Assembly: GCF_010537335.1 (NCBI RefSeq)
Contig: NZ_AP019711.1
Location: 992,001-1,056,000 of the forward strand
DNA length: 64,000 bases
DNA from: Amedibacterium intestinale
Lineage (GTDB): Bacteria > Bacillota_I > Bacilli_A > Erysipelotrichales > Erysipelotrichaceae
Direction of reading: 5' to 3'
Numbering within the stretch: position 1 is the stretch's first letter; each line of letters opens with the position of its first letter. The position numbers were made by a program, and so were the translations under genes. The notes below the pieces were generated by a model that saw nothing but the letters and a program-made list of their open reading frames with translations, did no database searches and was not told the DNA's origin. Positions 19,403 to 25,884 of the stretch are shown here, in pieces.

Positions 19403-20593
19403 TTAATTTGTGAAATTATCAAAGTATCCCTGTACTAAAACAATTGGAGTTCCTTTATCACCAGAACCACTTGTCAAGTCACATAAAGAACCAATCAAAT
19501 CAGTAAGTTTTCTAGGAGTAGTCCCCTGAGAAGCCATATTTCCTTTTAAGTTATCATCTTTTTCTTTGATTTTTTCTTCAATGGCATGCTGCAGTTCTTC
19601 TCCATTTAAATCCGCAAAATCATTATCTGCTAAATATTTTAATTTTAATTCATTTGGAGTTCCTTCCAAACCACTTGTATAAGCAGGAGATACAACTGGA
19701 TCAGCCAATTCCCAGATTTTACCTTGAGGATCTTTAAATGCACCATCCCCATATACCATAACTTCAATATGTTTCCCTGTTTTTTCTTTAAGAGATTTCT
19801 GAATATCTTCAACTAAATCCTGACACTCTCTTGGGAACAGTTTAACCATATCTTCTGTTGATTTATTTGAACCTAATAATCCATATTTTTCATTATATCC
19901 GCTTCCATTAACAGAAGAAGTCATAAGATCATCAAGTCCACATACTCTTTCAGCACCATGTTTTAGAAGAATACGTTTTGTACGTGCTCTTGTGTGAATA
20001 TCACAGTTAATTACATTTTTTGTATAATTCAAAATTGTTTTTGGATTATTCGCAAAAATAATTTCTACTTCTGCACCGCATTCACGAATCAAGTTGCCAT
20101 AGTATTCTACATAGTCTACTCCAGTAAACTCATGTTTGTTTTCTCCAAATAATTCACGATATTTTTCTAGTGTTAAAACATCACTGTATGGATTGATGCC
20201 TGCATCATCAAGTTTCTCAATGCTTACAAGTTCATTTCCAACTTCATCACTTGGATAACTAAGCATTAAAACGATTTTCTTTGCCCCTTTCGCAATACCG
20301 CGAAGACAGATAGCAAAACGGTTACGACTTAAAATTGGGAAAATAACACCAACAGTTTCTCCTCCCAGTTTTTCTTTGACATCCGCTGCAATTGCATCAA
20401 CACTTACATAATTCCCCTGTGATCTAGCCACAATAGATTCTGTAACTGCAACAACATCACGATCACGAAGTGCAAAACCTTCTGATTCAGCCGCTTCCAT
20501 CACACTGTTTACTACAATGTTTGCCAAATCATCTTTCTCACGAATAATTGGGCATCGTACACCTCTTGAAATTGTTCCTACTTTTCTTTCCAT
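19403..20593 (-). CDS. Coenzyme F420-0:L-glutamate ligase-like protein (CofE family)
   Basis: 396 residues. The first 250 residues resemble the F420 ligase domain: VRCPIIREKDDL, DVVAVTESIVARSQGNYV, RNRFAICLRGIAKGAKKIVLML. CofE adds glutamate to F420-0, but no other F420 gene is visible and this lineage is not known for F420. Homologues of unknown role occur in gut Firmicutes. The C-terminal part has MVYGDGAFKDPQGKIWELADP and ends TPIVLVQGYFDN. Family membership is fairly clear; the substrate is unknown. Confidence 0.72.
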   Translation of the reverse strand: MERKVGTISRGVRCPIIREKDDLANIVVNSVMEAAESEGFALRDRDVVAVTESIVARSQGNYVSVDAIAADVKEKLGGETVGVIFPILSRNRFAICLRGIAKGAKKIVLMLSYPSDEVGNELVSIEKLDDAGINPYSDVLTLEKYRELFGENKHEFTGVDYVEYYGNLIRECGAEVEIIFANNPKTILNYTKNVINCDIHTRARTKRILLKHGAERVCGLDDLMTSSVNGSGYNEKYGLLGSNKSTEDMVKLFPRECQDLVEDIQKSLKEKTGKHIEVMVYGDGAFKDPQGKIWELADPVVSPAYTSGLEGTPNELKLKYLADNDFADLNGEELQHAIEEKIKEKDDNLKGNMASQGTTPRKLTDLIGSLCDLTSGSGDKGTPIVLVQGYFDNFTN

Positions 20594-20663: not shown

Positions 20664-21146
20664 TCAGAAAAACTTACTTTTTTTCTGTGGGAGAAAAATG
20701 AACTCTACATCAACGTTTTCTTCATTAAGAGTAAGGATTGCATAGGATGGAGCTCTTCCATCTCTGCTTCTCCATAAAGAACCTGGATTAATCAAACGAA
20801 CACCATCTATCGTTTCATCCTTTGCGACATGCGTATGCCCATAACAGAAGATGTCACAACGATTTTCACGTGCTGTTTTTGCCATTTGTTCCAATCGATG
20901 AAGATAAGAAAAGCTATGTGAATGCGCCATATAAATACGATGTTTTCCAACCTCTAGAATGCGATAATCCGGATAGTCGTAAAAAAGATCGTTATTCCCT
21001 CTTACAATTGTATATTCCGGATAGTATTCCTGTGGTGCATCTATATCCCCGCAATGAAGATATGCAGCAGCATCTGGATGCTTTAAAACAATTTCTTCCA
21101 GGATATCTGCTTTTCCATGACTGTCGCTAACGACAACTAGCTTCAT
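20664..21146 (-). CDS. YfcE/MJ0936-type metallophosphoesterase
   Basis: 160 residues. Metal-binding motifs of the calcineurin fold: VVVSDSHG (residues 3-10), HCGDID, RGNND, MAHSHSF and YGHTHVA. Members hydrolyse phosphodiesters; the natural substrate is generally unknown. GTG, ATG and ATG occur in frame at 21155, 21152 and 21146. The last has AGG eight bases upstream and the motif begins right after it. In many Firmicutes such genes follow rdgB, but here it is separate. Confidence 0.9.
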   Translation of the reverse strand: MKLVVVSDSHGKADILEEIVLKHPDAAAYLHCGDIDAPQEYYPEYTIVRGNNDLFYDYPDYRILEVGKHRIYMAHSHSFSYLHRLEQMAKTARENRCDIFCYGHTHVAKDETIDGVRLINPGSLWRSRDGRAPSYAILTLNEENVDVEFIFLPQKKSKFF

Positions 21147-21212
21147 TTTCATCACCTAGTGTTAGTATACCATATTTCTAGAGTACATACCTAGAAAAAT
21201 TTACGAAATTAT

Positions 21213-22181
21213 TTAAAAACGCACTTCATTATAAACAAGATCATTTACAGAAATACTATTTTTGTTTTCAAAAGGAGAGAGGATAACTCCATCTACTTTT
21301 ACCTGCAGTTCTTCAACTCCCTCCAGCATAGATAAAGAAAGTATCAGACAATTATATGCATCTTGTTTTATTTCACGATCACTTCCTAAAAGATTTCCCT
21401 TCACATCAACACTAAGCACTCCATTTTCAAAATGACTCGAATGCAAAGTAATATTATCATCATATAGAGGCTGACTTAAATTGGCAGATACCTGTACATC
21501 ACTTACGATTTGCTCGATTTCTTCTTCCATCGTATTTACATCATAAGGCACTCTTCTACTTTGCGGTACCATATAAACCACTCCATCGATCTTTCTTGTC
21601 GCAAAGACAGTTATTGTATGAGAATCATGCAGAGTAGAAGCCTTTGTTTCAAAATGATTGATACCTATTTGTCTATTTAAAGTTGCAGGAATTGGTGTAT
21701 GATCTAACGGCATTTCTTTTAACTCCTGATTATCCAGCATCAGCTTTACATCTGTGATATCTGAAAACTGTGTAACTCCCCAAGCCAAAGACTCTAATAA
21801 GCGTAATTCCTGTTTTTTATCATAATTTTTAAAAGATTCATTAAAATACAATACAGCTGTATGATCTTGTAATGAAACTGTTTTTAAAATACATTCTTTT
21901 TTAAATAAGGGCTTAAAGTTATCAATTTTCTGTTTTCCACTCATATACGCTATCAGAAGCTGTAATTTATCTTCAATACTTGTATCCGGATTTACAGAAA
22001 TGCTTACAGGGACCAATGTATTTTCTTTATCCAGCAAATATACCTGCATATAAGATTCTTCTTCCTGCAAAGATAAAACAGGTGTATCCTGCGTTTTAAA
22101 AGGAAAATAAGTAAATGAAAGATAACTGACAAGTGCCAGTCCCCCAAACAACAAGGCAATTTTTTTCTTAAGTTGTTTCAT
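21213..22181 (-). CDS. GerMN-domain lipoprotein-like sporulation/germination protein
   Basis: 322 residues. An N-terminal membrane anchor (about 7-25) has no clear lipobox cysteine, so it is more likely a signal-anchor. Two tandem GerMN/sporulation-type domains follow (about 45-175 and 185-320), each with the pattern of an N-terminal strand pair and a VKLMLDNQEL or LQVKVDGVIL strand. GerM-type proteins act between mother cell and forespore at the cell wall. The neighbouring VanY-like protein and gerE support a sporulation role. Confidence 0.78.
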   Translation of the reverse strand: MKQLKKKIALLFGGLALVSYLSFTYFPFKTQDTPVLSLQEEESYMQVYLLDKENTLVPVSISVNPDTSIEDKLQLLIAYMSGKQKIDNFKPLFKKECILKTVSLQDHTAVLYFNESFKNYDKKQELRLLESLAWGVTQFSDITDVKLMLDNQELKEMPLDHTPIPATLNRQIGINHFETKASTLHDSHTITVFATRKIDGVVYMVPQSRRVPYDVNTMEEEIEQIVSDVQVSANLSQPLYDDNITLHSSHFENGVLSVDVKGNLLGSDREIKQDAYNCLILSLSMLEGVEELQVKVDGVILSPFENKNSISVNDLVYNEVRF

Positions 22182-22216
22182 GTATTCACCTCTACCCCAT
22201 GGTATGTATACCTGTA

Positions 22217-22244
22217 TAAAAAAAGAACATACTAGCTGTTCTTT
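22217..22244 (-). terminator. Terminator of the VanY-like gene
   Basis: On the minus strand AAAGAACA pairs with TGTTCTTT across a seven-base loop, followed by a T run. Confidence 0.8.
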
Positions 22245-22246
22245 CT

Positions 22247-23269
22247 TTAAGAGAATTCTTCTATATCTTTCTCACTGAGTTCTTCCATAACGATTCCTTT
22301 ATCATGCATATATTTTGCACACTCTTCTCCAACATAGCGAAGAATATAAGGCTGATAGGCTTTATGTGTTACATCTTCTTTCTGTTTAGGATAGCGAATA
22401 ACAAATCCATATTTATAAGCGTTATCTTTTAACCAGATAGCCTGCTCCTGTTCTTCCTTTTTTGTTTCTTCCTTATTTTTATTTTTACTATTTTCTTTTG
22501 GAAGAAGTTCTATCGTATACCCAAGCTGTGCTTCATTTCTCCCTGGATAATCAGTATAAGAAAGTGCCTCATCTTTATATTTTTTTACAGCTTCCTCATA
22601 TAAGGAGACCTGGTTTTCATAGGAAATATACCCTGCTGTGACCTCCATATCCCCAAAGGTCTTATTATTAATTTCTTTCGCATCCTTTGCCATCTTCTGC
22701 AATGGCTGTAAAACCTCTTTTTTTATTTTAATATTCTTGTTTTTAACAGGAACACCGCTCACATTCACAAGATTATCAGGTTCATATGTATAAAATGTTT
22801 CTTTATTTTTTAATACTTCTAATTTCATAGAAGGATCTGGTACAAGAATGCTTTCACTTTGATAACCATCTCCCTCATCAAAATATCGTGTCAGCACATT
22901 ATACGAATATGTTTTTAATAAAGAATCTAAAGTTGTATATTGCAAATTCGAGCGATATTTATTTATGAAAGAAACAATATAGCTTTTATCTTCCTTTCTA
23001 GCATGATAAGCCTTATCATACCATAACGTATTTTCTACCTGAAATCCTTCAATATCAATATATGGTAAAAACTGGGAAGGTTCAATTTTCTGTGAAACCA
23101 AAAAATCGATTTCTTCTGTATCCATATGTTTTAAAACTAAAGAACGTTCTTCTTCATTCAGCTCGTATGGATATCTTGCCAGTTCGTCATAATGCTCATT
23201 CATTTTAAAAAAACAAATAACAAATAAAACAAGCAACGACACTAGAAATAATGTACGTTTTAGCTTCAT
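22247..23269 (-). CDS. VanY-like (M15) protein lacking the zinc ligands
   Basis: 340 residues: membrane anchor (about 7-24) and a large extracytoplasmic part. The C-terminal third follows the D-Ala-D-Ala carboxypeptidase layout: TAGYISYENQVSLYEEA, PGRNEAQLGYTIEL (about 240-253), WLKDNAYKYGFVIRYP, and QPYILRYVG (about 308-316). In active VanY/DacY enzymes the second and fourth motifs read SEHxxGLAxDI and EPWHxRYVG. Here histidine is alanine, aspartate is glutamate and the last histidine is isoleucine, so zinc binding should be lost. Start at 23269 follows GAGGTG. Confidence 0.75.
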   Translation of the reverse strand: MKLKRTLFLVSLLVLFVICFFKMNEHYDELARYPYELNEEERSLVLKHMDTEEIDFLVSQKIEPSQFLPYIDIEGFQVENTLWYDKAYHARKEDKSYIVSFINKYRSNLQYTTLDSLLKTYSYNVLTRYFDEGDGYQSESILVPDPSMKLEVLKNKETFYTYEPDNLVNVSGVPVKNKNIKIKKEVLQPLQKMAKDAKEINNKTFGDMEVTAGYISYENQVSLYEEAVKKYKDEALSYTDYPGRNEAQLGYTIELLPKENSKNKNKEETKKEEQEQAIWLKDNAYKYGFVIRYPKQKEDVTHKAYQPYILRYVGEECAKYMHDKGIVMEELSEKDIEEFS

Positions 23270-23302
23270 AAGCAACACCTCATTTTTCATTATACCATGT
23301 TT

Positions 23303-23755
23303 TTATATTTCTGTCTTATCTTGAAAACCAACAACAAGATAAATTGTATGCTTTCTGATAAATAACAAACTGGTAACAACTTCATAATGAAAAAGCAAGG
23401 GGACTCTTTGCCAATGGTATTTGACATGCAAAAGCGGATATAAGGAAATTCCTCGCCATCGAAAATTTTGTAATACATCCCTGCAAATATAAATTGCTTT
23501 TGTATCCTGCTGTTCTTTCATTTTTTGTTTTTTCAGCTGTTTCCACATAGCATATACTTCTTGTTCATGCATCATTTTCATATACTTTTTTTGATAAGAA
23601 AGCATTTCTTTATACAACAAAGAATCATTAATTTCTGGCTGCTTTTGTATTTTCTTTTGAAAGTAAGCATGCATATGATGCGTTTTTTTAATTTCATTTT
23701 CCAGATATCGATATTGTGTATGATTCACACGTAAACAATAAGTGACTTTCTGCAT
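23303..23755 (-). CDS. Hypothetical protein, basic and helix-rich
   Basis: 150 residues, not recognised. The start follows GAGAGGAG at good spacing, so it is probably real. The first 90 residues are strongly basic and helical (many K, Q, M, H, Y), and the last 50 are hydrophobic/aromatic. It lies between gerE and the VanY-like gene on the same strand, so it may belong to the late sporulation set. A nucleic-acid-binding role is possible but unsupported. Confidence 0.5.
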   Translation of the reverse strand: MQKVTYCLRVNHTQYRYLENEIKKTHHMHAYFQKKIQKQPEINDSLLYKEMLSYQKKYMKMMHEQEVYAMWKQLKKQKMKEQQDTKAIYICRDVLQNFRWRGISLYPLLHVKYHWQRVPLLFHYEVVTSLLFIRKHTIYLVVGFQDKTEI

Positions 23756-23829
23756 ATAGTTCACTCCTCTCTATAAAGAGATACGAGTGAAACAGGAAAA
23801 AACCCTAAAAATTTTAAAGAAATTAAAAA

Positions 23830-23848: not shown

Positions 23849-24079
23849 CTACTGCAGATGCAGCTCTTCATTTCGTAACAGTTCTACAACCGCCTGTGCT
23901 CTTCCTTTAACGCCTAGCTTCAACATTACATTGGAAATATGATTGCGAACGGTTTTATCAGAAATGTGCATCTTTTCTGCAATTTCTTTTGTACTGTAAT
24001 TTTCAATGAGAAGAGAAAATACCTGCTTCTCTCTTGGTGTCAAGATTTTCTGCGTAAGCAATTCCCCCTTGTCTTTCAC
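23849..24079 (-). CDS. gerE: Spore germination/coat regulator GerE
   Basis: 76 residues consisting only of a LuxR-type helix-turn-helix: LTPREKQVFSLLIENYSTKEIAEKM, then ISDKTVRNHISNVMLKLGVKG and RAQAVVELLR. Size and near-identity to Bacillus GerE (74 residues) in the recognition helix and the GRAQAVVELLRNEELHL end make the call firm. GerE works late in the mother cell with SigK to control coat genes. It is directly downstream of uvrC, as in some Bacilli. Confidence 0.93.
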   Translation of the reverse strand: MKDKGELLTQKILTPREKQVFSLLIENYSTKEIAEKMHISDKTVRNHISNVMLKLGVKGRAQAVVELLRNEELHLQ

Positions 24080-24120: not shown

Positions 24121-25884
24121 TTAATTTTGTTCAGCGTGTAAAATCTGATATAAATCTTCTGCCACTTTTAAAGGAATTACTTCTGCAATTTCCTCTACAC
24201 TAGCTTCTTTTAATCGTTTTAATGATTTAAATTGTTTCCATATTTCTTTTTTACGAACTTCTCCAATACCTTCAACTTCATCTAAAATCGACTTTGTCAT
24301 AGCCTTCCCACGAAGTTTTCGATGAAAAGAAATCGCAAAGCGATGCACTTCATCCTGCATTTGTGTTAATAAAAAGAATAAAGAACTTTCTCTTTCTACA
24401 GGAAGGATATTTCCATTTCGATCCATTAAATTGGCAGTATGGTGATTATCATCTTTTACCAAGCCACATAAAGTGATATCTACATCTAAGGCATCTAAAA
24501 TTTCTTTTGCGGCTTCTATTTGTAAATAACCCCCATCCACAATCAGTAAATCAGGAAATCTTCCTCTTTCCTTTAATAAACGAAAATATCTTCGATACAC
24601 AACTTCCTTCATGGAATCCAAATCCGATACATATTCTTTCAAACGATAGGTTCGATAATCTTTTTTACTTGGTTCTCCATCTACAAATACAACCATACCA
24701 CTGACATTAAATGCCCCTGAAATATGCGAGTTATCAAATAATTCAATACGATGAATTTCTTTCTTCAACAATGCTGATAACTGCTTCATCGCCTCTTCTT
24801 TTCGATGATCTTTACGCTCTACTAATTCAAATTTCTGCTGGTGAGCATTTTTCGCATTTACCAAAACCATTTCAACCAGCTTTAGTTTATCCCCACGTAA
24901 TGGCTGTATGATCTTCGCATTTAAAATCTCCTGTAAATGTGTTATATCATATTCTTTTGGAATTAGTATTTCACTAGGAAGTGGATTTGCTTCATAATAC
25001 TGCAAGATAAAAGAAACAAAGGCATCCATTGCATCTTCATACAAAGGGGTAATGGACAAGGTTCTTTCCAGCATCTTTCCTCCACGAAGAAAAAATCCCT
25101 GAATTGAAATATATCCTTTATCTACATAATACCCAAATACATCACGATCTTTACGATCTTTAAAATCAATTTGCTGTTTGGCTGTTACATGTTCAATAGA
25201 ATGAATCAAATCCAGTTTTTCTTTTGCTTTTTCAAACTGCATTTCTTCACTTGCTTTCTGCATTTCAGCATATAAATTTGAAACAATTTCTTTCACATCT
25301 CCATTTAAAAATTTTCGTATTCCTAAAGCCATCTGCGTATATACACTTTCATCAATATCCTTTACACATGGGGCAAGACATTGTCCCATGTGATAATACA
25401 GACATTCTTTTTTAGGAAGACGTTTGCATTTTCTTAATGGGTAAAGCTGATTTAAAAGCTTCATTGTTTCCCATGCAGCAGAACTGTCTGGAAAAGGTCC
25501 AAAGTACTCTGCTTTTTTATCTTTCGTGTTACGTACAACACGAAGAATAGGAGCTTTTTCCTTAGAAAGTTTTAAATATGGATAGCTTTTATCATCCATA
25601 AACATGATGTTATAAGGAGGAGTATGTTTTTTTATCAAATTAATTTCCAGCAGAAGTGCTTCTTTTTCACTGCCGCATACAATATATTCAAAATCGTCAA
25701 TATTAGAAACAAGACGAGTCGTCTTAAAATCATGCGCGCCTACAAAATACTGACGCACACGATTTTTTAACTTTTTCGCTTTTCCTACATAGATAATATC
25801 TCCCTCTTTGTTTTTCATCAAATAACAGCCAGGAAGTGCTGGCAAAATTGCCAGCTTATCTTCAATTTTTGCCATATTTGCCAT
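24121..25884 (-). CDS. uvrC: Excinuclease ABC subunit C
   Basis: 587 residues, normal length. N-terminal GIY-YIG nuclease (about 12-95: LPGCYLMKNKEGDIIYVGKAK), UVR motif (about 195-235), the RNase H-like 5' nuclease (about 370-520: IELFDNSHISGAFNVSGMVVF, LLIVDGGYLQ, DDNHHTANL) and the C-terminal helix-hairpin-helix (EVEGIGEVRKKEIWKQF). UvrC makes both incisions in nucleotide excision repair. It is 10 bases downstream of mutS2, so probably co-transcribed. Confidence 0.97.
   Translation of the reverse strand: MANMAKIEDKLAILPALPGCYLMKNKEGDIIYVGKAKKLKNRVRQYFVGAHDFKTTRLVSNIDDFEYIVCGSEKEALLLEINLIKKHTPPYNIMFMDDKSYPYLKLSKEKAPILRVVRNTKDKKAEYFGPFPDSSAAWETMKLLNQLYPLRKCKRLPKKECLYYHMGQCLAPCVKDIDESVYTQMALGIRKFLNGDVKEIVSNLYAEMQKASEEMQFEKAKEKLDLIHSIEHVTAKQQIDFKDRKDRDVFGYYVDKGYISIQGFFLRGGKMLERTLSITPLYEDAMDAFVSFILQYYEANPLPSEILIPKEYDITHLQEILNAKIIQPLRGDKLKLVEMVLVNAKNAHQQKFELVERKDHRKEEAMKQLSALLKKEIHRIELFDNSHISGAFNVSGMVVFVDGEPSKKDYRTYRLKEYVSDLDSMKEVVYRRYFRLLKERGRFPDLLIVDGGYLQIEAAKEILDALDVDITLCGLVKDDNHHTANLMDRNGNILPVERESSLFFLLTQMQDEVHRFAISFHRKLRGKAMTKSILDEVEGIGEVRKKEIWKQFKSLKRLKEASVEEIAEVIPLKVAEDLYQILHAEQN

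Follow-up and report, generated by a model that had tools for sequence, protein, structure and literature searches.

A VanY-fold protein of Erysipelotrichales without its catalytic residues, a putative pseudoenzyme of the cell envelope

Introduction

In the L,D-carboxypeptidase LdcB, the functional residues comprise the zinc ligands His153, Asp160 and His207, the catalytic Glu204 and the substrate-binding Arg120 (PMC4087270), a set referred to below, in sequence order, as R/H/D/E/H. Inactive homologues of metallopeptidases were reviewed in 2024, and in the accessible part of that review the M15 entry consists of Hedgehog only (PMC11266112). Bacterial pseudopeptidases on the VanY/LdcB fold appear to be undescribed so far; a targeted search of the openly available literature returned no description of such proteins. 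In the order Erysipelotrichales repeated loss of sporulation is known, and the order is said to be without many of the usual wall hydrolases (PMC10868615). For the sporulation side of the locus described below, the reference is GerM of Bacillus subtilis, which helps to assemble the SpoIIQ:SpoIIIAH platform (PMC7924749).

Here we describe a gene from a stretch of 64,000 nucleotides of the Amedibacterium intestinale genome (hereafter the window), whose product, termed pVanY, shares the VanY/LdcB (M15B) fold and has lost all five functional residues. Our analysis suggests that pVanY probably represents a dedicated pseudoenzyme family, which would serve vegetative cells as a membrane-anchored, non-catalytic adaptor of the envelope.

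Results and discussion

The pVanY gene and its locus

The gene occupies exactly the coordinates of the original prediction, which had left the strand unstated (minus; Table 1). Translation starts at the ATG at 23269; an in-frame ATG further upstream at 23290 would give 347 aa, and the orthologues align from the motif MKxKR. The N-terminal helix (residues 2–26) is hydrophobic in every aligned orthologue, and the helical domain that follows is the most conserved large part of pVanY in the main clade of the window's own family (f1). For this domain we obtained no Pfam match, and a Foldseek search revealed no fold relative in the PDB, the only hits being insignificant ones to helical-repeat and designed proteins.

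On the minus strand the genes follow each other in the order uvrC, gerE, a 153-aa ORF, pVanY, gerM and yfcE. The gene had initially been placed between a GerMN protein and gerE, which is correct for gerM as the direct downstream neighbour, while gerE is separated from pVanY by the 153-aa ORF (23764-23303), whose matches (27–37%) are confined to the closest relatives. The terminator-like hairpin at the stop codon folds with −15.4 kcal/mol (z = −2.0) and was not picked up by a consensus terminator scan; a promoter scan with a sigma-70-type consensus gave no excess over shuffles. The order in B. subtilis is gerE, ysmB, racE, gerM, rph, ysnA, ysnB, which resembles the pVanY locus, and the latter therefore looks like an old sporulation neighbourhood. 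The racemase gene murI, identified by Pfam, adjoins pVanY in many relatives from three families, yet is missing between pVanY and gerM in the window (22181-22247). An F420-0:gamma-glutamyl ligase-like protein is encoded near the locus (19403-20593, minus strand; PF01996, E = 1e-59) and likewise near that of the closest relatives L031, L032 and L114 (85–87% identity).

Table 1 Features of the pVanY locus, in window coordinates and in minus-strand order.
Feature	Position	Strand	Basis
uvrC, upstream end of the conserved locus	24121..25884	minus	blastp synteny in both families
gerE-like LuxR-type regulator	23849..24079	minus	Pfam GerE, E = 7.1e-21
153-aa ORF without Pfam family, between gerE and pVanY	23303..23764	minus	ORF call
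pVanY, 340 aa	22247..23269	minus (23269 -> 22247)	ORF; Pfam VanY, E = 4.6e-21
pVanY N-terminal predicted TM/signal-anchor helix, residues 2-26	23192..23266	minus	AF2 helix 2-26
pVanY all-helical N-terminal domain, residues 28-132	22874..23188	minus	AF2, conservation, profile A3
pVanY pseudo-carboxypeptidase domain (VanY fold), residues 160-330	22280..22792	minus	Pfam 180-314
Ile215, column of substrate-binding Arg (SpLdcB Arg120)	22625..22627	minus	alignment
Ala247, column of zinc ligand His153	22529..22531	minus	alignment
Glu254, column of zinc ligand Asp160	22508..22510	minus	alignment
Gln306, column of catalytic Glu204	22352..22354	minus	alignment
Ile309, column of zinc ligand His207	22343..22345	minus	alignment
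Terminator-like hairpin and U-run at pVanY stop codon, before gerM	22217..22249	minus	RNA fold
GerM, two Germane domains, downstream neighbour	21213..22181	minus	Pfam PF10646, E = 4.8e-18
YfcE/YsnB-type phosphodiesterase, downstream end of the conserved locus	20664..21155	minus	TIGR00040; synteny

Retained fold and lost catalytic residues

pVanY matches the Pfam VanY family (PF02557) with E = 4.6e-21 and 75.4 bits at a cut-off of 25. Its best phmmer match in the PDB is YodJ (4ox3, E = 1.9e-23), with an alignment that spans both motifs, PGRNEAQLGYTIEL and QPYILRYVG, which the original prediction had named and which are present in the protein. The comparison of a predicted structure with VanY, suggested at that stage as a check, also came out in favour of the fold: AlphaFold2 on nine orthologues gave a model of good confidence (pLDDT 89, pTM 0.78) with the VanY fold kept, which aligned to 4ox3 in Foldseek with E = 9.9e-13 and a TM score of 0.73 on the target, and whose significant matches were VanY/LdcB structures only. 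In the LdcB columns, the zinc ligands read A247, E254 and I309, precisely the exchange of His/Asp/His for Ala/Glu/Ile claimed before, and the catalytic Glu (Q306) and the Arg (I215) add two further losses, so that five functional positions are lost as opposed to the three first reported. Two VanY paralogues encoded in the same genome (L066, L067) have R/H/D/E/H intact.

Orthologues and proposed order of loss

Orthologues were collected as full-length proteins in the same family first and then in a second family (f2) via the regions around gerM. The f2 proteins have likewise lost the zinc ligands, and both families of the order share the common arrangement uvrC-[gerE]-pVanY-[murI]-[gerM]-yfcE. 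A profile of the N-terminal domain, applied to a class-wide sample, added a third family of the class (f10), in which pVanY has lost its ligands and adjoins murI. A few weaker profile matches in f9 and f17 turned out to be VanYs that retain all five residues and whose N-terminal domain is similar; hhalign related the N-terminal part of pVanY to them at 96%, as compared with a weak match (probability 53) to the order's own catalytic paralogues.

By the profile of the N-terminal domain alone, 45 of 60 relatives carry pVanY, in one copy each; the gene is absent from the remaining 15/60 and hence dispensable within the group. In some small-genome f1 members (L105-L107, L116, L117) pVanY adjoins yfcE and not uvrC, while in G011 (L046) it adjoins neither. 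Among named species, Longicatena caecimuris is the closest (61%), according to a tight pVanY alignment with which eight named loci were recovered. The Traorella proteins (L076-L078) are without the C-terminal segment, which would hold the third ligand and the RYVG motif; their frame is open, and the truncated gene is under purifying selection in the one pair tested.

In a tree of 50 pVanY orthologues and 15 catalytic VanYs, calculated by a quick method after removal of the five functional columns and with many deep branches poorly supported, the pVanY orthologues form a single clade (SH-aLRT 99), and a smaller tree also places them in a clade of their own. The Arg is replaced in all 50 orthologues (by Lys in two), the catalytic Glu is lost in nearly all, and the full R/H/D/E/H set is found in none. 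Orthologues with His/Asp/His, which the original prediction regarded as evidence against its claim, do exist (7/50, all f1: L043, L044, L046, L048, L106, L107 and L116), but they lie on other branches than the window's gene, none has the full set, and only L046 among them has kept the Glu. The triad is lost in the window's clade and separately in the clade of f2 and f10 on this tree, where the state with all three ligands lost requires six changes; as far as alignment and tree can tell, it is thus lost in more than one pVanY lineage. Because the intermediates keep the triad without the Arg, the losses would have occurred in the order Arg, Glu and zinc triad.

The kept fold and the seven relatives with a zinc triad could be taken to mean that pVanY is still a working peptidase that uses different metal ligands or a different mechanism. 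However, the orthologue alignment contains no conserved alternative His or Cys in the domain and no conserved His/Cys/Asp/Glu set that could form an alternative metal site, the only strongly conserved acid being E246 (0.94). The residues at the lost positions are mostly aliphatic or varied among orthologues. Together with the loss of Glu and Arg and the missing third-ligand segment in Traorella, this makes residual peptidase activity hardly credible, and the sequences strongly support the prediction that pVanY is non-catalytic.

Selection and constraint

Pairs of close species gave dN/dS values of 0.05–0.19 for the whole pVanY gene and 0.04–0.17 for its dead half, compared with 0.15–0.18 for gerM and 0.04–0.06 for uvrC. 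These values (NG86; five pairs of relatives, with the window's gene itself not among them) are rough, as synonymous distances were near or above 1, while their sign is clear. Since the VanY domain is still under purifying selection, we consider pVanY a working pseudoenzyme, and the non-catalytic role originally proposed for it is borne out by this selection along with the lost triad, Glu and Arg, the lack of alternative His/Cys residues and a set incomplete in 50/50 orthologues.

The same data bear on the very improbable alternative of a decaying, functionless gene that persists because it lies within a housekeeping operon. Such decay would fit the absence of the gene from a quarter of the relatives (15/60), a VanY domain that has eroded in certain lineages, and the two carriers with damaged genes, namely G058 with a broken frame and G003 with a truncated one. 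Yet dN/dS well below 1 in both halves of all five pairs already disfavours it, as do open frames of more than 300 aa in the other carriers (43/45) and the persistence of fold and core residues across long evolutionary distances. In G003 (L065:7178-7585) pVanY is cut to a 135-aa N-terminal part, the stop codon TAA of which overlaps the start ATG of yfcE.

The distribution of conservation differs from that of active enzymes. In the catalytic paralogues, the VanY domain is more conserved (0.60) than the N-terminal domain (0.35), whereas in the f1 main clade of pVanY the N-terminal domain (0.46) exceeds the VanY domain (0.36); in f2 the difference is slight (0.55 versus 0.50). R32, F76 and Y84 of the N-terminal part are invariant and D28 is nearly so. 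Judged by these alignments, constraint in pVanY is moved to the orphan N-terminal helical domain.

Relation to sporulation

pVanY was detected in 24/24 SpoIVA-positive and 26/27 Spo0A-positive relatives, but also in 19/33 Spo0A-negative ones, two of which are single-contig genomes (G041, G050); its range thus takes in almost every spore former of the group and extends beyond them. Germane domains occur in 21/27 Spo0A-positive and 2/33 Spo0A-negative genomes, in neither of the latter two at the pVanY locus. In the asporogenous loci that were fetched, gerE and gerM are absent and pVanY still adjoins uvrC and/or yfcE, frequently with an overlap of a few bases with yfcE.

These counts are relevant to the proposal that pVanY works with GerM in sporulation only, as a non-catalytic scaffold or a protein that binds peptidoglycan. 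Its neighbours gerE and gerM, its near-complete presence in spore formers and the role of GerM at the SpoIIQ:SpoIIIAH platform (PMC7924749), combined with a reduced spoIIIA set, speak for such a link. As pVanY outlives the surrounding sporulation genes, however, its role cannot be sporulation alone, and we regard sporulation specificity, and with it the specific role first suggested, as unlikely. Regarding the spoIIIA set itself, SpoIIIAE (PF09546) was found in 0/60 genomes (G000 and 59 relatives), and SpoIIIAH matches were obtained in most spore formers, the one in G000 (C1:705120-705530) being weak. Erysipelotrichales seem to have a reduced sporulation channel.

Proposed function

Since the catalytic machinery is lost while the gene is intact and stays at the same spot across the order, including non-spore-formers, the job of pVanY is probably structural or partner-binding, located in the envelope and not spore-specific. 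The N-terminal helix would hold the protein in the membrane, with the helical domain and the dead VanY domain facing outside. There, pVanY may act as a non-catalytic adaptor or scaffold of the vegetative envelope, with a partner protein and/or the stem peptides of peptidoglycan as its ligands. Its main function would lie in the N-terminal domain, and the VanY fold would hold the partner or the peptidoglycan; in spore formers it may additionally work beside GerM. We infer this adaptor function from catalytic loss and conservation, both of them read from sequence. Several observations speak against it: the substituted positions vary freely and so give no hint of a new conserved site where zinc was once bound, a quarter of the relatives do without the gene, and the N-terminal domain resembles that of the order's catalytic paralogues only weakly, although its match to the f9 and f17 VanYs is good.

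A partner within the same enzyme family is conceivable, as pseudoenzymes often regulate active relatives (PMC11266112), and 10 of 12 genomes checked encode one to four other VanY-family proteins beside pVanY. The latter could thus influence the active VanY/LdcB carboxypeptidases of its own cell as an activator, decoy or competitor. In G012, a genome 97% complete in ~10 contigs, no VanY-family protein other than pVanY is encoded, so that pVanY needs no catalytic VanY to act upon. Regulation of catalytic VanY was therefore rejected as a general role, the activator function once considered is unlikely in this sense, and we deem the regulator explanation as a whole improbable.

Returning to the envelope adaptor, a broader picture can be drawn, which we put forward tentatively as being about as open to error as to confirmation: pVanY may be an order-wide family of envelope pseudo-carboxypeptidases, retired stepwise (Arg first, then Glu and finally the zinc site, which was lost on more than one occasion), whose function moved to the N-terminal membrane-proximal domain, and which could mark a vegetative envelope complex that was recruited to, and is not specific for, sporulation in the thin-walled Erysipelotrichales.

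Significance and comparison with known systems

The intermediates, from proteins without the Arg that keep the triad to those in which everything is gone, offer a natural record of a wall enzyme turning non-catalytic, and the conservation of the locus suggests a role in the envelope of a group said to be poor in the usual wall hydrolases (PMC10868615). Nearly all pVanY members tested exceed the Pfam VanY cut-off and could therefore be labelled D-Ala-D-Ala carboxypeptidase or VanY, a label that would distort surveys of resistance and wall biology in gut bacteria. In the NCBIfam VanY/VanXY models, pVanY reaches ~48–71 bits and stays below the cut-offs of 250–500; it should not be annotated as resistance.

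Compared with the M15B L,D-carboxypeptidases YodJ/LdcB (PDB 4ox3, 4ox5, 4mph), pVanY has the same fold and motif framework (SYxxQ, PGxxExQxG, YGFxxRYP, RYVG), but is without the zinc triad, the catalytic Glu and the substrate Arg and has an extra N-terminal helical domain. The VanY/VanXY carboxypeptidases of glycopeptide resistance belong to the same Pfam family and fold; in contrast to them, pVanY is without the catalytic residues and its locus contains no van cluster. SpoIIQ, a LytM/M23 protein in degenerate form that belongs to the sporulation channel, resembles pVanY in its dead metallopeptidase fold, in its link to GerM and in its membrane anchor, which for pVanY is a predicted one, but has the M23 fold and is sporulation-specific.

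The N-domain of Sonic hedgehog is, like pVanY, a pseudopeptidase on an M15-type fold, and its partners bind at the dead site; it differs in being an animal protein that keeps the zinc triad (PMC11266112). In Foldseek, the pVanY model gave no significant Hedgehog match (E ~3). A functional precedent is provided by BA0330 and BA0331 of Bacillus anthracis, inactive polysaccharide deacetylases that are attached to the membrane and have a peptidoglycan-binding and wall-stabilising role (PMC4505593), although these are lipoproteins and their fold is unrelated to that of pVanY.
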